NCBI GenBank assembly: GCA_003402345.1
Contig: QFXH01000001.1
Coordinates: 248,001 to 312,000, forward strand
DNA length: 64,000 nt
Source of the DNA: Candidatus Nitrotoga sp. MKT
GTDB lineage: Bacteria; Pseudomonadota; Gammaproteobacteria; Burkholderiales; Gallionellaceae
Reading direction: 5' to 3'
Positions within the stretch are counted from its first letter, which is position 1, and each line of letters starts with the position of its first letter. This document shows, one piece after another, positions 49,574-58,652 of this stretch. The notes below the pieces were generated by a model. The model did no database searches. It was not told the DNA's origin and saw only the letters and a list, made by a program, of their open reading frames with translations. Position numbers and translations under genes: made by a program.

Positions 49574-49735
49574 TTAGCTTAATAAATTGAAGCATGCGGG
49601 GTAGCCAGGCTCGCTTCCCAAATCCCATGCAATCTCTTTTGAAATGGTGCTCGGAGAGCGTTTCAAGAATCGACCAATCTCTCTCAGTTCACGATACTCG
49701 CTGTAACCATCGACGTGCTGAATGAGAAACACAAA
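49574..49735 (-). pseudogene. Remnant of an IS30-family transposase
   Basis: Read on the minus strand, this stretch gives REIGRFLKRSPSTISKEI, a close match to the N-terminal helix-turn-helix of IS30-family transposases (REIA-LGRSPSTISREI pattern). It is bounded by stop codons at about 49736 and 49574 and lacks the DDE catalytic domain. Only about 54 codons survive, so it is dead. No terminal inverted repeats were recognised. Confidence 0.55.
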
Positions 49736-50040: not shown

Positions 50041-50103
50041 TGAAAAACTTCACCTATCGGATCATGGCGTTTGATACTCGTAAGAGTAAGGGAAACAGGA
50101 TTC

Positions 50104-51741
50104 ATGGATCTACCAATGTATAGTTTTGTTTCACTGTTTATTGGATTATTAGTTGGCGCAGGTGTTGGTTGGTTGATTTTGTATACCCGTATTTCTACTG
50201 CAGAATTTCGGGTAAAAAGTGAAAGCCAAGTTGAAATTGCCACACTTAATGCACGTCTGATCGCCTCACAGGAAGAAGTACAGCATCTCAACACACAGCT
50301 CGCTAATCTGCAAGAGCAAGCAAATCTCTTGCGCGACCAGCTTGCTGATGCGGGCAATGAGTGTGCCCAATTGGCCGAACGCGCGGGTCGTGTTCCTACA
50401 CTTGAGGCTGATCTTGTAAAGACAAATCAAGAGATACTCAAACTTAACCAATCCATCGCAGATATTCGTGAAAAGGTGGGTACCGTTAACTCGACCATTA
50501 AGTCACAAGCGGAGCATATTGCGCAACTTCAGCAGGAACGCGACAATCTGAAAAAGCAAAATGAGTTACTAACACAGGACATCAAGAGTTTGAGTGTGCA
50601 AAAATCCGAGCTCACCGCGACACTGGAAGCTGAGCGCAAGCAGTCACCAGAAAAATTGCAATTATTGAATGATGCCCGCGAACAGCTTTCGAATCAGTTC
50701 AAGTCCCTAGCTGGAGAAATCCTGGAAGACAAAAGCAAGCGTTTTACTGAGCAAAATCAAACCAACATAGGCGCGCTACTTGGACCATTGCAGACACAAC
50801 TTCATGAATTCAAAGCTAAGGTTGAAAATATTCATATTGAGGATACAAAGCAACAAGCAACCTTAAAGGCAGAGCTAAATCAATTAAAAGATTTAAATCG
50901 GCAGATTACCGAGGAGGCTCATGGTCTGGCAACAGCACTTAAAGGCCAATCCAAAATGCAGGGGAATTGGGGGGAAATGGTATTGGAGAATATCCTGGAT
51001 CGTTCAGGATTGAGGCTCGGTAAAGAATATCGTCGCGAAGTCAGTTTTAACACCGAGACGGGCAAGAGCCGCCCAGACGTAATTATTTATCTTCCGCAAG
51101 AAAAACATCTCGTCATCGATGCCAAAGTATCCCTCAATGCCTACACCCGGCATGTTAATGCAGAAGGAGAATTTGAGCGGCAATTGGCACTGAAAGAGCA
51201 CGTTGCAGCTATATCGAGCCGAATTAAGGAACTGTCAGATCGAAATTATTTTGAGCTACCCGGCCTAAATTCCCCCGAGATGGTCTTCATGTTTATTCCC
51301 ATTGAATCCGCTTTCGTAGAAGCGTTGCGCGCAGACGAAACGTTATTCCAAAAAGCTATTGAACAAAATGTGTTGGTTGCGACGCCGACCACATTGCTTA
51401 CCAGCCTCAATATCGTGCGTCAACTCTGGAGATTTGAAGAACAAAATGCTCATACTGCGGAACTTGCGGAACGTGCCGCCAAGGTGTACAAAAAGCTAAG
51501 TGCCTTCGTTGGTTCAATGCAAGGAATTGGCACGCAACTCGACAAAGCCAAGGATTCATTTAATAAAGCAATGGATCAATTTACTAACGGGAAAGATAAT
51601 CTGATTAAACAAGCCAACGATTTCAAAAGACTTGGCGTCTTAGTGCAAGGGACTTTCCCTGAGAGTCTGCTGGCCAAGGCAGAACTCGAATTAGAGCACC
51701 TGCCTGAATTACCTCCACAAGAAACTGTACCATTGGAATAA
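50104..51741 (+). CDS. rmuC: RmuC-family putative nuclease
   Basis: RmuC limits recombination between inverted repeats and belongs to the PD-(D/E)XK nuclease fold. The product has 545 residues from ATG 50104. An N-terminal membrane helix (FVSLFIGLLVGAGVGWLILYT minus a few residues) is followed by a long coiled coil to about residue 200. The nuclease-like domain includes the family patterns GNWGEMVLENILDRSGLR, then PDVII...LVIDAKVS, whose D-x-K supplies catalytic residues. It ends two bases before the hsdM start, so here it heads a restriction-modification-like operon instead of being a lone housekeeping gene. Confidence 0.92.
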   Translation: MDLPMYSFVSLFIGLLVGAGVGWLILYTRISTAEFRVKSESQVEIATLNARLIASQEEVQHLNTQLANLQEQANLLRDQLADAGNECAQLAERAGRVPTLEADLVKTNQEILKLNQSIADIREKVGTVNSTIKSQAEHIAQLQQERDNLKKQNELLTQDIKSLSVQKSELTATLEAERKQSPEKLQLLNDAREQLSNQFKSLAGEILEDKSKRFTEQNQTNIGALLGPLQTQLHEFKAKVENIHIEDTKQQATLKAELNQLKDLNRQITEEAHGLATALKGQSKMQGNWGEMVLENILDRSGLRLGKEYRREVSFNTETGKSRPDVIIYLPQEKHLVIDAKVSLNAYTRHVNAEGEFERQLALKEHVAAISSRIKELSDRNYFELPGLNSPEMVFMFIPIESAFVEALRADETLFQKAIEQNVLVATPTTLLTSLNIVRQLWRFEEQNAHTAELAERAAKVYKKLSAFVGSMQGIGTQLDKAKDSFNKAMDQFTNGKDNLIKQANDFKRLGVLVQGTFPESLLAKAELELEHLPELPPQETVPLE

Positions 51742-51743
51742 GC

Positions 51744-53264
51744 ATGATTAATAACCAAGTCAAAAGCGACATAGACCGACTCTGGCTGGATTGTGCTGCG
51801 GGAGGAATTTCCAATTCGCTCACAATAATCGAACAAATATCCTTTCTGATTTTCGCCCGCCTGCTAGATATGGAAGAAGCACAACATGAGCGAAACTTAC
51901 GCTCCGATGAATCCCCGCATCATCTTTTTCGAGTTGACCAGCAAACGCTGCGCTGGCAAAACTGGAGCCGGATGAGTAATGGCGAGGACATGCTTAAGTT
52001 TGTGCGCGACGAGGTTTTTCCCCATCTGCGCATTCTCGGCGGCAAAAAATTCACATTTGGCGAATACATAAAAAACGTTTCGCTCCAAATTTCAAAGGCC
52101 AGTCTGCTGCTCTCGATGGTGGAGCAGATCGAAAATTTGCCGCTGGGCAATACCGACATCCAAGGTGGTTTATATGAGTATTTGCTGAGCAAGCTCACCA
52201 CGGCAGGTATACATGGCCAGTTTCGCACGCCGCGCCACATCATCAAGCTCATGGTGGAGCTTATAGACCCCAAGCCGTTTGAAACAATTGGTGACCCAGC
52301 TTGCGGCACGGCTGGATTTTTGGTGGCAGTAATGAAATACCTGCGCAAGACTTACTCTACACCGGAGTCCATCGAAACACTGAAAGGTAACAACAAAAAC
52401 TATCTTGTTGAGCCGCTTGAACTTAATCAAGAGCACATTCAGCACAACATGTTTCACGGTTTTGATTTCGATGCCACGATGCTGCGTTTAGCTGCCATGA
52501 ATTTGATGCTGCATGGGGTGGAAAATCCGGACCTTCATTACATGGATACGCTTTCAAAAGAATTCCCGGAAAAATTCCCGGACATTGCCAATGGCGACAA
52601 AAATGGACTGGATATCATCCTCTCTAACCCTCCATTTAAGGGTACGCTGGCGGAGGATGTGCATCCTTCGTTACTCAAAATTGTCCAAACTAGAAAATCC
52701 GAGTTGCTTTTCCTCGTCCTTATTCTCCGCATGCTCAAGAGTGGTGGCCGTTCCGCTACCATTGTCCCTGACGGAGCTCTGTTTGGTTCAAGTAAAGCCC
52801 ATTTGGCCGTACGTGAGTATTTGCTTGATCATAACCAGCTAGAGGGGGTGATCTCACTACCAACCGGTGTATTCAGATCTTTTGCAGGACTTTCTACCGC
52901 TATTTTGGTGTTCACCAAGGGGGGCTGCACTCAGGATGTATTTTTTTACGATGCGCAAACCGACGGACTCTCGCAGGGGAAAAAATGTCAAGAAAATGCC
53001 GACAATGATCTGTCCGACGTGCTGACCCAATATCGTCGCTGGCGTAATGGCGAGAGTGATTTTACTGATCGAACTGCAAAAGCTTTCAAGGTGTCCGCCG
53101 CAGACATTCGAGCCCATAATTTCGAGCTTTCAATAAACCGCTACAGGAAAATCAGGCATCAGGAAGTAAAATGCGAGGAACCCAAGGTGATTCTGGCACG
53201 CATGCGAATGCTTGAGGCCGAGATTCAAGGCGACATGGCTGAGTTGGAGGCTATGCTTCGATGA
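51744..53264 (+). CDS. hsdM: Type I restriction-modification DNA methylase HsdM
   Basis: N6-adenine methyltransferase subunit of 506 residues. An N-terminal helical HsdM domain (about 1-150) precedes the catalytic domain with S-adenosylmethionine motif DPACGTAGFL (about residue 180) and catalytic NPPF (about 294-297). QFRTPRHIIKLMVELIDP is a family hallmark. Motifs are intact, so it should methylate when paired with a specificity subunit. It is four bases (ATGA) into hsdS and directly behind rmuC. No hsdR occurs anywhere in the window. Confidence 0.95.
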   Translation: MINNQVKSDIDRLWLDCAAGGISNSLTIIEQISFLIFARLLDMEEAQHERNLRSDESPHHLFRVDQQTLRWQNWSRMSNGEDMLKFVRDEVFPHLRILGGKKFTFGEYIKNVSLQISKASLLLSMVEQIENLPLGNTDIQGGLYEYLLSKLTTAGIHGQFRTPRHIIKLMVELIDPKPFETIGDPACGTAGFLVAVMKYLRKTYSTPESIETLKGNNKNYLVEPLELNQEHIQHNMFHGFDFDATMLRLAAMNLMLHGVENPDLHYMDTLSKEFPEKFPDIANGDKNGLDIILSNPPFKGTLAEDVHPSLLKIVQTRKSELLFLVLILRMLKSGGRSATIVPDGALFGSSKAHLAVREYLLDHNQLEGVISLPTGVFRSFAGLSTAILVFTKGGCTQDVFFYDAQTDGLSQGKKCQENADNDLSDVLTQYRRWRNGESDFTDRTAKAFKVSAADIRAHNFELSINRYRKIRHQEVKCEEPKVILARMRMLEAEIQGDMAELEAMLR

Positions 53265-53995
53265 AGTTCGTTAGGCTAGGAAATATGGCGCAAATTATTT
53301 GCGGAGGATCACTTGACCGATCAAACTCTGCCTGTTGGAACGGTTCGATTCCTTGGGTTACTGCGAGGGATATTCGCGACGGAAGCATTATTGATTCGTT
53401 GGAAAGAATTACAGAGTTTGGCCTGAAAGAGTCAGGCTCTAATTTATTGCCCATCGGAAGCATACTTGTGCCAGCGAGCATGGCTCTCGAAAATATTGTC
53501 ATTAACGATATACCGGTTGCCATTAATAAAGATTTAAAGGCAATCATTGTTGAATCCCCTGATCTTGACAGGAATTACATACAGCAATTTTTGCTCTCGA
53601 AAGCAAATAGTCTTGAGATTAGCGGCAACGAATGGATGAAAAACAGGCATACAACCGAAATTCTGGCTAATATTAATATCCCGCTTCTGCCCCTGAAAGA
53701 GCAGCGGCATATCGCCTTAATCCTCGACAAAGCTGATGCTATCCGTAAAAAACGCCGTGCCACACTTAAACTCGCAGACAATTTTTTACATTCTATTTTT
53801 TTGGATACATTTGGCGATTCGGCGACAAATCCGAAAGAGTGGCCAACTCCTCCAATTGCTGCTCAGAAACGCTATACGCAAATTCATAACAAGATGATTT
53901 CAATTAAAGAAAAACTTGCAAATGAACTAGTTCAATCAAATTTTCTTTTCAACAGTCTTGCCGCATCTGTCTTTACATCGTCTGAGACAGCCTGA
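53261..53995 (+). CDS. hsdS: Half-size HsdS specificity subunit lacking the second recognition domain
   Basis: DNA-recognition subunit of 244 residues, against about 400 for normal HsdS. Residues 1-145 form one complete target-recognition domain. Residues about 147-190 are the central conserved helix region (LPLKEQRHIALILDKADAIRKK...FGD), ending in NPKEWP, which normally begins the second recognition domain. The sequence then jumps straight to the C-terminal conserved repeat (IAAQKRYTQIHNKMISIKEKL...LFNSLAASVF). This looks like an in-frame loss of the second domain near base 53850. Such half subunits can work as dimers that recognise a symmetric site. Confidence 0.85.
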   Translation: MKFVRLGNMAQIICGGSLDRSNSACWNGSIPWVTARDIRDGSIIDSLERITEFGLKESGSNLLPIGSILVPASMALENIVINDIPVAINKDLKAIIVESPDLDRNYIQQFLLSKANSLEISGNEWMKNRHTTEILANINIPLLPLKEQRHIALILDKADAIRKKRRATLKLADNFLHSIFLDTFGDSATNPKEWPTPPIAAQKRYTQIHNKMISIKEKLANELVQSNFLFNSLAASVFTSSETA

Positions 53996-54015
53996 GCAAC
54001 GAGGATAAACAAAAT

Positions 54016-55716
54016 ATGAATGCACCGACCGCTATTAATCAGACGGGGCTGACCAAAATTTATATTGAGAATTTTAAAGGGATCGGTTCCGAAATTCAGA
54101 TTGACCTAAAACCGATTACCCTTCTTTTCGGTGCAAACAGCGTTGGGAAAAGCACTATCATGCAAGCGCTGCAGTATGTGCGTGAAGTACTGGAGCGCAA
54201 TAACGCCAACCCTGACCGTACTCTGCAGGGCGGAAATTTTGTTGATCTGGGCGGGTTTCGCAATCTCGTCCATCTGCGCGATACGACGCGCCATATTGCC
54301 ATTCAGATCGAACTTTCTTTAGGTGGGAAAGGGTTACCCGATTTGGTGCCTGAAGCCTTTGACGATTGGCAAACAGATGATTCCAAGGTGTGGGCTTTTT
54401 ATAACCTGTTGCATGAAACACGGAATCGCGTCGAGTCGGTAAGCGTGAAGCTGGTGATTGCCTGGAGTCATCTACGCGATAGAGCTGTGGTGATCGGCTA
54501 TCAAGTGGGTGCCAATGGCGAATGGCTGGCCGAAATTGATGCTACGGATGATGGTCGGGATGTCAGCATCAGCATTAACGAGATCAACCCCATTTTTATG
54601 CGCCAGTTCACGCAAGAAGATCTTAGCAATAACTTAGAATATCTTTTGCGATTGAATACGAATTCGGCCACATCCAGTGACTCCGTAGCACCCAACATTG
54701 AAACTCACTATACGATATGGCCACACATTATCGAGACGGTAACTAATGCGGGCATGGAAAAGACTGGTGAGGGGCTGCGCGAATGGCTTTCCGGTTTTGA
54801 TAGCGCGTTGCCCCGATTGGGCGAACTACTGCATATCCCGGCACCAGATGTAATCGGGGCGGAAAATGTTTATATCGCCCGAGAGTTCACCGCCTTTATT
54901 TCGTCTCTGATTGTCGGCCCCGGTTTGCTAGTGCGCGATGAATTGCGAAAAATGCGCTATGTCGGACCTATTCGTCATGTGCCCGCACGCGATTTCGATG
55001 CCAGCCTGACTAAAGACGAGGCAGGCTGGGCAGACGGTTTGGCTGGATGGGAAGCTTTGCTGACCGGACAGCAAAGCCTGATCGATAATGTCAGTCGCTG
55101 GATGGCGGACGAAGACAAGCTCAATACCGGTTATGCGATCGAGCGGCGTTGGGTGCGTGAAGTACGCTCGGAATGGTTAGATCTGATTAGCTCTGAAGAA
55201 TTGAGCCCGCAGCGTAAGCGAATGTTGAAAAAAGCAATTGAAACCTTGCTGACCAAGCCTCGCATCGGTTTAATCGATACTAAATCCGGTCTGGAAATGC
55301 AGTCACGGGATGTCGGAATCGGTATCTCGCAAGTGTTGCCAGTCGTAGTCGCTGCCCTGGAGCCTTCTGCAAGCCTGGTAACTATCGAGCAGCCGGAGCT
55401 TCATATTCACCCTTCTGTGCAAGTGGGCCTGGGTGATTTGTTAATCCACAGTGTACTCCGCCACGATATGAATTTTTTGATTGAAACGCACAGCGAACAT
55501 CTGATTCTGCGCTTGCTGCGCCGGATTCGTGAAACATCGGAGGGGAATTTACCGCCGAATTTTTCGTCTGTTTCTCCAGAAATGATAGGGGTTTATTATG
55601 TAGGTCGCGGAGAAAATGGAGTGCAGATCAAATCTTTGCCCGTTGATGAAACAGGCGAGTTTACGGAAAGCTGGCCTAAAGGTTTTTTTGATGAGCGGGC
55701 CGGAGAACTATTCTGA
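54016..55716 (+). CDS. RecF/OLD-type AAA ATPase with DUF3696-like C-terminus
   Basis: ABC-class ATPase of 566 residues, probably a sensor or motor of a defence system. It begins with the pattern of this group (IYIENFKGIGSEIQIDLKPITLLFGANSVGKST), with Walker A GANSVGKST at 39-47. The C-terminal part has the Walker B/D-loop TIEQPELHIHP, the switch histidine in FLIETHSEHLILRLLRRI, and the DUF3696-like ending GEFTESWPKGFFDERAGELF. No TOPRIM or nuclease motif is seen after the ATPase core. It lies 20 bp after hsdS, and its TGA shares a base with the next ATG. Role inferred from family and context. Confidence 0.8.
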   Translation: MNAPTAINQTGLTKIYIENFKGIGSEIQIDLKPITLLFGANSVGKSTIMQALQYVREVLERNNANPDRTLQGGNFVDLGGFRNLVHLRDTTRHIAIQIELSLGGKGLPDLVPEAFDDWQTDDSKVWAFYNLLHETRNRVESVSVKLVIAWSHLRDRAVVIGYQVGANGEWLAEIDATDDGRDVSISINEINPIFMRQFTQEDLSNNLEYLLRLNTNSATSSDSVAPNIETHYTIWPHIIETVTNAGMEKTGEGLREWLSGFDSALPRLGELLHIPAPDVIGAENVYIAREFTAFISSLIVGPGLLVRDELRKMRYVGPIRHVPARDFDASLTKDEAGWADGLAGWEALLTGQQSLIDNVSRWMADEDKLNTGYAIERRWVREVRSEWLDLISSEELSPQRKRMLKKAIETLLTKPRIGLIDTKSGLEMQSRDVGIGISQVLPVVVAALEPSASLVTIEQPELHIHPSVQVGLGDLLIHSVLRHDMNFLIETHSEHLILRLLRRIRETSEGNLPPNFSSVSPEMIGVYYVGRGENGVQIKSLPVDETGEFTESWPKGFFDERAGELF

Positions 55717-56576
55717 TGATTAAAGAATTTGCATTAGATCCAGATGCTATTACTTCGTCTTATCGTGAATTTTGCTACTTCACAGAGAAGTTCGGTGTAA
55801 GCCAGGGGCGAGTGATTTCTTCATTTCCCAAAAAATGGAGAAAACTGGTTTGTGATTCTGCTTTGCGCGAGCATAAGGGTAAAGTTGAATTTTCTAAAAT
55901 TGTGGAGCGTCTAAATAAATTTGGTAATGATATCGTTTTTGATACAAGTCGACCGAGTGGAGAAGGTTCTCAAACATGGATTGACCGGGCATTAATGGAG
56001 CATGCGCGTAAACCCTTTGCTGCGATTATCTCAGCTACCGCTGTAAATCACCCGGATGTTTTGCTAAAAGATGAAATTGATGAAGAAAATCCGCGTTTTA
56101 AAACTACTCGACAGTGCGCTATTCCTCGAACAGCCCAAGCCCTAATAGGCTGTGCTGAGTTTTTGATCCGGCACGCTAAAATAATTAAGCTGGTTGATCC
56201 ACATTTTGACCCTACCAAGCCTCGCTATCAGCGACCGTTAGAAGAGATATATTCTCTATTGCCCGGCAACAAAACCATTGTGGAAATACATCGTAGTGAT
56301 GAGATTGCAAACGACGAACTGATTCGACGTTTTCAGCAGAGCATTTCCATGTTGCCTTCAGGAGTGACGATGCAATTGCATATTTACGAGAAAGCACAAA
56401 TGCACAACCGCTTTATCATTACTGAGAGTGGCGGACTGATTTATGGAGTCGGCCTTAGTGACAATGAGGACGGTGGTGGCGCGCCGGATGAAGAGGTCAC
56501 CTTGATGGAAACAGCAGTCAAAAATACTCGCTGGAATGACTACAGCAAAACTTCGCCTATCGCTATATGGCCATGA
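55716..56576 (+). CDS. Putative phospholipase-D-like effector coupled to the AAA ATPase
   Basis: The family is not securely recognised; the product has 286 residues. Residues 154-165 (AKIIKLVDPHFD) resemble the first strand and loop of PLD-superfamily halves. Residues 229-250 hold MHNRFIITESGG...YGVGLSDN, similar to the degenerate HxK/HDR motif plus G-[AV]-[GS]-S/L step of PLD-like nucleases, with His230 as the likely key residue. Here Asn-Arg replaces the usual x-Lys. The first 140 residues are unfamiliar. Translation is coupled to the ATPase by TGATG. I infer an effector nuclease (or nucleotide hydrolase) controlled by the ATPase, with low certainty. Confidence 0.45.
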   Translation: MIKEFALDPDAITSSYREFCYFTEKFGVSQGRVISSFPKKWRKLVCDSALREHKGKVEFSKIVERLNKFGNDIVFDTSRPSGEGSQTWIDRALMEHARKPFAAIISATAVNHPDVLLKDEIDEENPRFKTTRQCAIPRTAQALIGCAEFLIRHAKIIKLVDPHFDPTKPRYQRPLEEIYSLLPGNKTIVEIHRSDEIANDELIRRFQQSISMLPSGVTMQLHIYEKAQMHNRFIITESGGLIYGVGLSDNEDGGGAPDEEVTLMETAVKNTRWNDYSKTSPIAIWP

Positions 56577-56696: not shown

Positions 56697-58652
56697 ATGA
56701 CATATCAAAAATTTATTGATCTTCCTCCCATGTTGAGCGCCCAAGGTACTGTGCGTCTTCCTGGTTCCAAAAGTATTTCCAACCGCATGCTGTTGCTCTC
56801 AGCGTTGTCTCATGGGGTAACTGAAATTCGTGATCTTTTGCATTCAGATGATACAGAGCACATGCTGCAAGGATTACGCACTTTAGGCGTATCAGTGGAA
56901 GCATTGGGAGGCCATGCTTATCGTGTGCAAGGATGTGCTGGCGATTTTCCGGTTAAGGATGCCCAACTGTTTCTCGGCAATGCGGGTACAGCTTTTCGCC
57001 CCTTGACAGCTACCCTGGCATTGGCCGGAGGCCATTATCAATTGTCCGGCGTGCCGCGTATGCACGAGCGCCCAATCGCTGATTTGGTGGATGCGTTGCG
57101 TGGGTTGGGTGCGGATATCCGATATCTGGGTACGGAAGGTTTTCCACCGCTCGAAATCTATCCTGCTAAGCTACTTGACGGCAGCCGCATCGCGGTGCGC
57201 GGTGATGTTTCCAGCCAGTTTCTCAGTGCTTTGTTGATGGCGTTGCCATTGATACCGAATGCAACCACGGTGGAGGTGAAAGGCGAGCTGATTTCCAAGC
57301 CCTATGTCGAAATTACATTAGCGATGATGGCGCGCTTTGGTGTGCAGGTTGTACGAAACGGCTGGAGTTCATTTACGGTTCCTGCCGGTAGCCACTATGT
57401 CGCGCCGGGTTTGATCCATGTCGAGGGCGATGCATCATCCGCTTCGTATTTTTTGGCTGCAGGTGCCATTGGTGGTGGCCCAGTACGAGTTGAGGGTGTA
57501 GGTCACAATAGTATTCAGGGCGATGTGCGCTTTGTCGAAGCATTACAGCTGATGGGCGCACGCATCGCAATGGGGCCAAACTGGATGGAAGCGCGTGCAC
57601 CAGAAAATGGCAAAATGAAAGGTATAGACTTGGATTGCAATCACATCCCCGATGCGGCGATGACGCTGGCGATATGTGCGTTGTTTGCCGACAGTATAAC
57701 CACGCTGCGGAATATCGCCAGCTGGCGTGTTAAGGAAACCGATCGTATCGCAGCAATGGCCACTGAATTGCGCAAACTTGGCGCAACGGTGGAAGAAGGC
57801 GCGGATTTCATTCGCATCATGCCGCCTCAATCCTTGATTTTGGCTCCTCAATACTCAATCGATACTTATGATGACCATCGCATGGCAATGTGTTTTTCGC
57901 TTGCCGCATTTAGTCAAACAGGTGTGCGTATCAACGATCCTCAATGCGTCGCCAAGACCTTTCCGGATTACTTCGAATGTTTTGCCAGCGTGGTTAAGGG
58001 TGTGCCAGTTATTGCCATTGATGGCCCTTCTGCTTCCGGCAAGGGTACCGTGGCGCAACTGGTTGCGGCACAACTTGGATTTCATTATCTTGACAGCGGT
58101 ACGCTGTATCGCTTATTGGCGTTAGCTGCGCAACAACGTGGAATAGCGTTGGATGCGGAAGATCAATTGGCTGATTTGGCGGCGCGCATGGATATACGCT
58201 TCGAGGGAATGAATTCATGGCTGAATGGCGTGCAGGTAAATGATGAGTTGCGTTCCGAACAATCAGCAATTGCGGCGTCCAAAGTAGCAACATTGCCAGC
58301 GGTACGCACCGCATTATTGAGCAAGCAACATGCTTTCCGTCGGGCACCAGGATTGGTTGCGGATGGCCGTGATATGGCGTCAGTGGTATTTCCTGATGCG
58401 GTTTTAAAAGTATTCCTAACTGCCAGTGCAGAGGTTCGCGCTGAACGGCGTTATAAACAGTTGATGGAAAAAGGAATCAGTGCTAGTATTCCAGACCTTT
58501 TAGAAAAAATTCGCGCTCGCGATGAGAGGGATAGTCGGCGTAGTACTGCTCCGTTGCAACAGATGCCCGGGGCCAGTTTGCTCAACACTACCGACTTGAC
58601 TATCGGGCAAGCGGTGCAGGAAGTGCTAACACGTTACCATTCCATGCATTGA
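56697..58652 (+). CDS. aroA-cmk: Fused EPSP synthase / cytidylate kinase
   Basis: One open frame of 651 residues joins two enzymes. Residues about 10-435 are 3-phosphoshikimate 1-carboxyvinyltransferase of the shikimate pathway: [29 protein letters not shown] and [14 protein letters not shown] are diagnostic. Residues about 438-650 are CMP/dCMP kinase with P-loop [22 protein letters not shown] and [13 protein letters not shown]. No stop or frameshift separates them. Enzymes normally encoded by neighbouring genes, as in E. coli (aroA, cmk-rpsA), are thus a single bifunctional protein. The ATG at 56697 lacks a strong ribosome-binding site. Confidence 0.96.

Follow-up and report, generated by a model that had tools for sequence, protein, structure and literature searches.

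Since the ATPase/PLD pair follows hsdR, hsdM and hsdS in loci outside Nitrotoga, where one further case of an extra rmuC was also found, we read the five-gene locus of this genome as a domesticated form of a composite type I locus that has lost hsdR and in which the methylase and the ATPase/PLD pair form two separable units (probability roughly 0.55). The locus lies in a 64,000-nt window (the whole stretch of DNA analysed, to which all coordinates refer) from the genome of a Candidatus Nitrotoga, a nitrite-oxidising organism.

All five genes are encoded on the plus strand. The first is rmuC (50104..51741; 545 aa; PF02646, 1.9e-95), for which a longer frame starts at 50071, followed by hsdM (51744..53264; 506 aa), encoding a type I N6-adenine methylase (PF02384, N6_Mtase, 7e-61; HsdM_N, 2e-08), and a half hsdS (53261..53995; 244 aa; one Methylase_S domain, 2.6e-17). 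The fourth gene encodes an OLD/RecF-type ABC ATPase with a C-terminal DUF3696 (54016..55716; 566 aa; AAA_15 1.9e-20, AAA_21 1.4e-15, DUF3696 7.3e-07, together with a family alignment), and the fifth a PLD-like, MIT_C-related protein of 286 aa (protein 5; 55716..56576) with an H-x-R at residues 230-232, assigned by a 20-row family alignment and hhalign. The reading frames and the spacings of 2, -4, 20 and -1 bp given in the first-pass annotation were exact, and its single-domain specificity subunit and upstream IS30 remnant were confirmed, the latter being a decayed minus-strand fragment (49577..49702) with a match to HTH_38 (8.4e-07), a domain that we take to be typical of IS30. Downstream, a gap of 120 bp leads to aroA-cmk, which lies in one frame on the plus strand (56697..58652; EPSP_synthase and Cytidylate_kin matches). 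Directly ahead of aroA lies tyrA (PDH_N/PDH_C matches) in G017, a Nitrotoga genome without the operon, as well as in G029, a member of the family.

Within the genus, the locus was present and syntenic ahead of aroA-cmk in 14 of the 19 genomes searched, while two nearly complete members (G004 and G017) are without it. The gene order was retained in all 13 relatives' loci, including one from which hsdM and the greater part of hsdS are gone, and is beyond chance. Every partner gene is kept in 13/14 Nitrotoga loci, and the genes overlap or almost touch in all 13 five-gene loci. The dN/dS values of the ATPase (0.065) and the PLD-like protein (0.054) compared to 0.13 for aroA-cmk indicate that the pair is under stronger constraint, and those of HsdM and HsdS were approximately 3-5 times higher than those of the pair. 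Values of dN/dS near 0.05 would be equally compatible with a house function and with defence.

Outside the genus the pair was rare; of the 16 loci that could be judged, 14 had it behind type I hsd genes, and four more (L114, L115, L118, L119) end too soon to judge and are outside the 16. One further match lay on a contig fragment (G892). The usual visible order was an RtcR-like sigma-54 regulator, hsdR, hsdM, hsdS, ATPase and PLD, and hsdR coexisted with the pair in each of the 12 loci in which this stretch of the operon could be seen. As to the regulator, the Pfam RtcR model matched one of the two proteins scanned, and the NCBIfam RtcR model remained below its cut-off for the sole one tested. 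The order hsdR-hsdM-hsdS-ATPase-PLD was found on Methylocella, Vibrio and Azotobacter plasmids (with hsdR and hsdM frameshifted in the last) and in G081, G518, G548, G962, G847, G916, G800 (hsdM frameshifted), G1248 and G1269, with extra genes interposed in some of these loci; the window contains hsdM-hsdS-ATPase-PLD, the order by which we define the composite locus. In G081 ordinary chromosomal genes surround the entire locus, and in G1269 a TOPRIM-bearing OLD protein adjoins the pair. No methylase was found near the pair in Deinococcus, where it stands behind an Argonaute-like gene, or in G099, where it stands alone. The possibility raised earlier that pair and methylase travel independently was therefore borne out only in part: pairs without a methylase nearby do occur (G099, Deinococcus and Nitrotoga sp. 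BS, see below), but most pairs follow hsd genes. The idea of a composite locus as a non-random neighbourhood held, based on the 14/16 loci and on one independent element that has an additional rmuC immediately ahead of hsdM. A search of 50,697 phage records with the G081 protein as query gave no match, nor did a distant blastn search of 20,395 E. coli records with DNA of the Vibrio-type pair only; searching viral contigs with three single-protein queries led nowhere.

The first reading that hsdR is missing from the locus was upheld. Three HsdR and four regulator queries from related loci gave no tblastn match at E values of 1 or below, either in the window or in the 13 relatives' loci, save one stray regulator match at E 0.07, the view upstream of rmuC being only 0.2-2.5 kb in four of the Nitrotoga loci because the contigs end. 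Elsewhere in the genome, the three hsdR genes found each adjoin their own hsdM and hsdS, and none clearly pairs with this hsdM/hsdS, although an unusual in-trans pairing with one of them is conceivable. The Nitrotoga HsdM is 47.8-55.2% identical to HsdM from five hsdR-containing loci, compared to 27.5% (blastp) to 31% for its closest counterpart among the further HsdM proteins of the genome, and carries PACGTAGF and SNPPF, which we take to act as methylase motifs. Compared to the 391-aa HsdS of Nitrotoga M5, the half HsdS consists of the first target domain and the C-terminal segment, with the second target domain absent in frame. It is intact (233-245 aa) in 11/14 Nitrotoga loci, full-length HsdS being found only in M5 and fabula (369 aa). 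This yields a prediction inside one genus, namely a symmetrical methylation motif for strains with half HsdS and an asymmetrical one for those with full HsdS.

Nitrotoga sp. BS represents a natural experiment on the methylation dependence of such a pair. Its hsdM stops after 17 codons, only the 3' end of its hsdS remains, and no hsdM closer than 32% was found elsewhere in its genome. The ATPase and PLD genes are open, with dN/dS values of 0.080 and 0.052 compared to the 12 others; these values stem from one genome and include the time before the methylase was lost. Because BS retains the pair after losing hsdM and the bulk of hsdS, methylation is probably not an obligatory antidote to ATPase/PLD.

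The guess that protein 5 is PLD-like was backed by profile comparison with controls. Searches of Pfam, PADLOC and NCBIfam with protein 5 itself gave nothing with an E value of 0.1 or less; among 20 members of its family, the best E values were 0.017 (Pfam), 0.029 (NCBIfam) and 0.04 (PHROGs), with none in PADLOC and no direct match to Pfam MIT_C, both at E up to 10. Aligning the family to BrxL MIT_C domains with hhalign gave probabilities of 97.1, 97.3 and 96.5%, compared to at most 0.3% for nine controls (three unrelated families, one reversed and five column-shuffled). Two weak family-search matches (G1116, G1139), left out of the pair-locus counts, were to the terminal MIT_C domain of BrxL. 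These profiles argue for homology of protein 5 to the MIT_C branch of the PLD superfamily. The AlphaFold model (pLDDT 44) is too weak to carry weight; Foldseek with this model returned PLD enzymes as top matches at E 1.5e-3 and none at or below 0.001, and PDB sequence searches with protein-5 profiles gave weak unrelated matches only. The MIT_C domain of human MITD1 has a membrane-binding PLD-like fold. An H-x-R is invariant in 20/20 family members, protein 5 lacking the catalytic H-x-K of the HKD enzymes of this superfamily, and it could be inactive. According to the accessible part of a BREX survey, the C-terminal domain of some BrxL proteins is an HKD endoDNase in which a lysine-to-arginine change is thought to preserve activity (PMC12839542).

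RmuC, whose best PADLOC 2.0.0 match is RTasRmuC (3.9e-109), has an N-terminus that reads like a membrane anchor. The rmuC gene occupies the same place in 13/13 relatives' loci and is the only RmuC gene found in the window genome and in each carrier genome, while four non-carriers have a different one. An extra rmuC directly before hsdM, as in Nitrotoga, was found in one element in two genomes (G962 and G1248); their RmuC proteins are 99% identical, as expected of one recent element, and we therefore count one independent case besides Nitrotoga. This case weakens the view of RmuC as a plain bystander. The same island lacks rmuC in G1269, and none was seen in the hsdR-hsdM interval of the other nine loci where it is visible. 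In an RmuC tree of modest support, with one plasmid row misplaced by a long branch, the embedded RmuC, itself on a long branch, grouped with the gammaproteobacterial ones (support 82/84), apart from the Nitrotoga RmuC, and from this placement the two recruitments look separate. No hsd genes were found beside plasmid RmuC in four neighbourhoods chosen from 20 of 54 records.

Under the reading that we prefer, the ancestral order would have been an RtcR-like (CARF-type) sigma-54 regulator, hsdR, hsdM, hsdS, the DUF3696 ABC ATPase and the PLD-like protein. The ancestor of the carrier Nitrotoga would have lost hsdR and the regulator, with the locus becoming fixed behind rmuC and before aroA, and the second target domain of HsdS would later have been deleted in most carriers; the losses are taken from comparison, and we infer their order. 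HsdM and half HsdS would then form a solitary adenine methylase, in which two half-HsdS subunits may pair and read a symmetrical two-part site. The ATPase and the PLD-like protein would form an autonomous two-gene module of sensor and nuclease: the ATPase may sense abnormal DNA or a phage-related state, and its ATP turnover would license nucleic acid cleavage by the PLD-like protein, putatively an HKD-type nuclease fold with H-x-R. Judging from BS, one genome, this module would need no methylase as antidote. RmuC, of nuclease type and probably co-transcribed, may add a degradation step. Given the strong type I association, the pair may still be functionally linked to HsdM/HsdS. A restriction locus would have joined the stable gene set of most genus members while restriction was lost. 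The pair is a candidate module of two genes for defence or genome maintenance, and its second protein is not convincingly matched by any model of Pfam, PADLOC, NCBIfam or PHROGs.

A tentative alternative is that the ATPase/PLD pair is an unnamed, portable and self-contained effector cassette adopted by different DNA-recognising machines, namely type I enzymes and Argonaute, and that in Nitrotoga it has become near-core and works with RmuC, independently of restriction and methylation. It is rather unlikely that the pair is a guard like PARIS, which responds to Ocr, with the ATPase monitoring either the type I enzyme or the blocking of that enzyme by anti-restriction proteins of phages and then releasing the PLD-like protein to act as a suicide nuclease. 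The location of the pair behind hsd operons and the OLD protein adjoining it in G1269 would suit such a guard, as would the description, in the accessible part of the survey, of OLD-type ABC ATPases with varied nucleases that serve BREX and RM-like systems as neighbouring back-up effectors (PMC12839542). However, the pair persists without an adjacent type I enzyme in G099, Deinococcus and BS, and without HsdR in the 14 Nitrotoga loci. Further type I enzymes that it might watch can be encoded elsewhere in a genome; the window's own, the one examined for them, has three. We consider it unlikely that the pair and RmuC were domesticated to a non-defence role in the DNA repair or recombination machinery of Nitrotoga. 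One fixed site beside housekeeping genes, constraint above that of aroA-cmk and an rmuC that is the sole copy found in carriers and differs in four non-carriers speak for it, but G004 and G017 manage without the locus, other loci are mostly hsd operons, some of them on plasmids or in an element common to genera (that of G081 is chromosomal), and constraint can also act on defence genes that are useful. The integrated system proposed by the first-pass annotation, in which self DNA is marked by HsdM/half-HsdS and the ATPase/PLD pair, alone or together with RmuC, takes the place of HsdR in attacking DNA that lacks the mark, is quite unlikely despite the tight packing of the five genes, their retention in 13/14 Nitrotoga loci and the position of the pair after hsdS in 14/16 loci elsewhere. 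The pair as a replacement restriction arm is not supported, as it coexists with hsdR elsewhere (12/12) and occurs without a methylase nearby in G099, Deinococcus and BS, and HsdM and HsdS are under weaker constraint than the pair. The further suggestion of an orphan methylase beside an unrelated two-gene system was rejected because the pair follows hsd genes in 14/16 judgeable loci.

Compared to type I restriction-modification systems, the locus shares HsdM, an HsdS target domain and the 4-bp M/S overlap, but in Nitrotoga it is without a cognate HsdR, has a half HsdS instead of one with two target domains, and carries two extra genes. MADS likewise has HsdM-like, HsdS-like and AAA ATPase genes, and PADLOC mad2 (1.7e-36) and mad5 (8.5e-23) matched below the type I models; however, NCBIfam MAD2 (130.4 of 720 bits) and MAD3 (34.3 of 420) both scored far below cut-off. 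Among PADLOC models, the ATPase matched NsnB of Menshen best (8.9e-45), with neither NsnA nor NsnC among the best 25 PADLOC matches of each of the five proteins. PADLOC AriA and GajA matches also fall on the ATPase, and the Pfam results for the five proteins contained neither the TOPRIM (AriB/GajA) nor the UvrD helicase (GajB) of PARIS and Gabija. OLD-ABC dyads (PARIS, Gabija and BREX-linked) similarly combine an ABC-type ATPase with a nuclease-like partner beside RM-like systems, but their partners, as far as the accessible part of the survey describes them, are TOPRIM, HNH, PD-(D/E)XK or PIN proteins (PMC12839542), whereas here the partner is of a stand-alone PLD/MIT_C type. In BrxL of BREX, the PLD-like domain related to protein 5, which also has H-x-R, is joined to a Lon-like ATPase in a single chain, while protein 5 is a separate protein beside an ABC-type ATPase. 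Two-gene cassettes within hsd operons are described in the accessible parts of two reports: TgvAB of V. cholerae VPI-2, embedded in a type I operon and protective by itself (PMC11411939), and an ATPase/RNA-binding pair situated between hsdS and hsdR (PMC12255303). These belong to other families (GmrSD-like for TgvAB), and here the cassette stands after hsdS, with hsdR lost in Nitrotoga. Finally, ShdA of Shield is, in the accessible part of its description, a membrane-anchored RmuC-domain protein linked with defence (PMC10270631), which the RmuC of this locus may resemble, although it differs in being the genome's single copy and in being joined to hsd genes.

The first-pass annotation had described five genes with spacings of 2, -4, 20 and -1 bp, and these are present in the window as claimed (50104-56576), in the order rmuC, hsdM, half hsdS, DUF3696 ABC ATPase and PLD-like protein 5 (286 aa). 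The proposed methylase and single-domain specificity subunit held up, with HsdM and one HsdS target domain surely assigned by Pfam, as were RmuC and the AAA_15/DUF3696 ATPase, while no model in Pfam, PADLOC or NCBIfam matched protein 5 at E up to 0.1. No description of the locus was found in literature on DUF3696, RtcR/CARF, MADS, RmuC, HsdS, PLD-like proteins, Argonaute, Menshen and Nitrotoga restriction-modification, including the available sections of PMC10952713, PMC11411939, PMC12409362, PMC12255303, PMC7159879, PMC10270631 and PMC12839542; an earlier account is possible in the ABC-ATPase classification of Krishnan et al. or in the Menshen domain study.

Of the 61 genomes searched, 14 (including that of the window) encode protein 5, all of them among the 19 from the genus Candidatus Nitrotoga, with 79-96% identity in the other carriers. 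It was absent from the Nitrotoga genomes G002, G004 (91% complete), G011, G012 and G017 (97% complete). The order rmuC, hsdM, hsdS, ATPase, PLD, aroA-cmk, rpsA is kept in the loci of the 13 relatives, except for gene losses in Nitrotoga sp. BS, where hsdM (stop after 17 codons) and most of hsdS are gone, the 3' part of hsdS remains and the ATPase and PLD frames are still open; no other hsdM above 32% identity was found in the BS genome. As tyrA lies directly upstream of aroA in the non-carrier G017 and in G029 of the same family (Pfam PDH_N/PDH_C and EPSP_synthase), we suggest that the operon became positioned between tyrA and aroA. In the window and the loci of the 13 relatives, aroA and cmk (56697-58652) form one 651-aa open frame; the two parts are separate in G030.

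Selective constraint was compared as pairwise Nei-Gojobori medians of dN/dS over 14 sequences (13 for HsdM and HsdS). Values were 0.029 for RpsA, 0.054 for PLD, 0.065 for the ATPase, 0.130 for AroA-Cmk, 0.171 for RmuC, 0.184 for HsdM and 0.282 for HsdS. The similar dS of all seven genes (0.37-0.50) speaks for their common vertical descent. Between BS and 12 others (without N. fabula), dN/dS was 0.080 for the ATPase and 0.052 for PLD, values that include the time before hsdM was lost.

An intact HsdS of 233-245 aa is encoded in 11 of the 14 loci, the window's counted; it measures 391 aa in M5 and 369 aa in N. fabula, and BS has none. Compared with M5, the window HsdS lacks, in frame, the second target domain between the segments FGD..NPK.WP and TPPIA. 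In other type I enzymes with a truncated HsdS, the half-subunits act in pairs and recognise a symmetrical site; methylase activity and a symmetrical motif are predicted for HsdM and the half HsdS. The hsdR that might pair with them from elsewhere in the genome was sought, and all three hsdR genes (two recovered by Pfam HSDR_N, the third by a search with hsdR of G518) adjoin an hsdM and hsdS of their own. At the third locus M, S and R were each checked by model, and at the other two hsdS was assigned by model and hsdM by similarity. In these three further type I loci (L094, L030, L031), hsdM is split in L030, and Fic-like genes, named by reading, seem to separate hsdS from hsdR in L094 and hsdM from hsdS in L031. 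Nitrotoga HsdM is 55.2% identical to that of Methylocella, 55.1% to G916, 49.8% to Vibrio, 49.0% to G518, 47.8% to G962 and 31.4-33.9% to G548 and G081, versus at best 27.5% (blastp; 31% in a separate comparison) to the three others tested from its own genome. Judged by these identities, the methylase is of the hsd-ATPase-PLD kind of locus.

Outside the genus the pair of ATPase and protein 5 is sparse. In samples drawn from larger groups, and with profiles that grew from search to search, protein-5 profiles matched 4/399 genomes of the order (two of them Nitrotoga), 3/369 of the class and 14/398 of the phylum (own included in both, and two of the 14 being BrxL C-terminal domains), and 3/298 of the family of G962, G962 included; protein 5 itself matched in 5 of 72,556 plasmid records. 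Twenty non-Nitrotoga loci were examined (L045, L046, L087-L092, L108-L115, L118, L119, L136, L137), and the ATPase lies directly upstream of protein 5 in 19/19 with a visible upstream side, L118 starting at protein 5. The search for the same gene order, which the first-pass annotation had proposed, found hsdS upstream of the pair on the same strand in 14 of the 16 loci where hsd genes can be judged (L045, L088-L092, L108-L113, L136, L137; L114, L115, L118 and L119 end too soon), either adjoining or up to about 4 kb away across other genes or ORFs. The stretches seen of L046 (G099, pair alone) and L087 (Deinococcus) contain no hsdS. HsdR is visible in 12 loci (L045, L088-L092, L108-L111, L136, L137), with frameshifts in hsdR and hsdM of L089 and in hsdM of L111. 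The position upstream of hsdR is covered in 11 of these 12 loci and holds an RtcR-like sigma-54 regulator in ten of them and a WYL protein in Methylocella; L091 starts within hsdR. The RtcR domain was model-tested in three of the ten regulators (L045, Pfam RtcR 1.3e-07; L092, Pfam sigma-54 domain only; L108, below the NCBIfam RtcR cut-off at 329.6 vs 650 bits), the other seven being named by similarity or record annotation.

Several of these loci carry further genes. On Deinococcus sp. AJ005 plasmid p96k (L087:6138-10897), an Argonaute-like gene directly precedes the pair, matched by PADLOC Argonaute models (best 7.6e-30) and weakly by NCBIfam Argonaute (24.8 of 700 bits), possibly an Argonaute-linked version of the module. 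In L088:11041-19482 and L091:12067-15715, SIR2 and DUF87/HerA-like genes adjoin the hsdRMS-ATPase-PLD locus or lie within it (DUF87/HerA-like in L091 by reading); in G548 their place is between hsdS and ATPase. L108, L136 and L137 (from G962, G1248 and G1269) represent a single island whose flanking genes are nearly identical across the three genera, all of one family; in G1269, hsdS and the ATPase are separated by a TOPRIM-bearing OLD protein.

G962 and G1248 (two genera of one family in the window's class) carry an extra rmuC, placed after hsdR and before hsdM, and G962 has a second, housekeeping-like rmuC elsewhere. Because these embedded genes are 99% identical and in the same element, they count as one case; the same island in G1269 is without rmuC. 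In all 14 Nitrotoga carriers a protein search found no rmuC besides that of the operon (additional hits in G015 and G018 being fragments of it), and the Pfam model gave the same result in the three carriers tested. The non-carriers G004, G011, G012 and G017 have a different RmuC (24-27% identity), and G022, G031 and G029 of the same family have stand-alone relatives (46-47%, or 41.5-46.9% in a second comparison). RmuC thus recurs as a neighbour without being obligatory, and in Nitrotoga it probably also keeps a housekeeping role. The Nitrotoga genomes (G000-G018) have the operon-type or the distant RmuC but in these searches never the two together, a pattern suggestive of a gene replacement tied to the operon. 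RmuC may be linked in function to the rest of the locus.

The PLD-like label given to protein 5 is one we adopt for its fold, from hhalign comparisons with the MIT_C domains of BrxL, a BREX protein. The 20-row protein-5 family aligned with five MIT_C domains at Prob 97.1% in one direction, 97.3% in the other and 96.5% under default settings, and none of nine controls (ATPase, RmuC and HsdM alignments, a reversed domain and five column shuffles) exceeded 0.3%; in Pfam, none of the 20 members reaches MIT_C directly. A5, a protein-5 family profile, also matches two BrxL-like proteins at their C-terminal end (G1116, 8.5e-07; G1139, 1.9e-06); one of the two is BrxL by NCBIfam, and the other has BrxL and MIT_C domains by Pfam. 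BrxL or BrxL-like proteins ending in a protein-5-related domain (Pfam MIT_C) with H-x-R occur in L116:7538-9601, L117:9865-11916 and L138-L140, and Pfam MIT_C marks such ends in 3/200 genomes above the cut-off and 5/200 at E up to 0.001. Within the protein-5 family, H-x-R is conserved in 20/20 members, and most also have a D-P-x-[FY]-like motif. Protein 5 is likely a nuclease; in the working proposed for the pair, the ATPase would sense and the PLD-like protein would act as the nuclease. According to PMC12839542, some BrxL variants end in an HKD endoDNase in which lysine is changed to arginine, with activity expected, and protein 5 shares with that domain the arginine in place of lysine (H-x-R).
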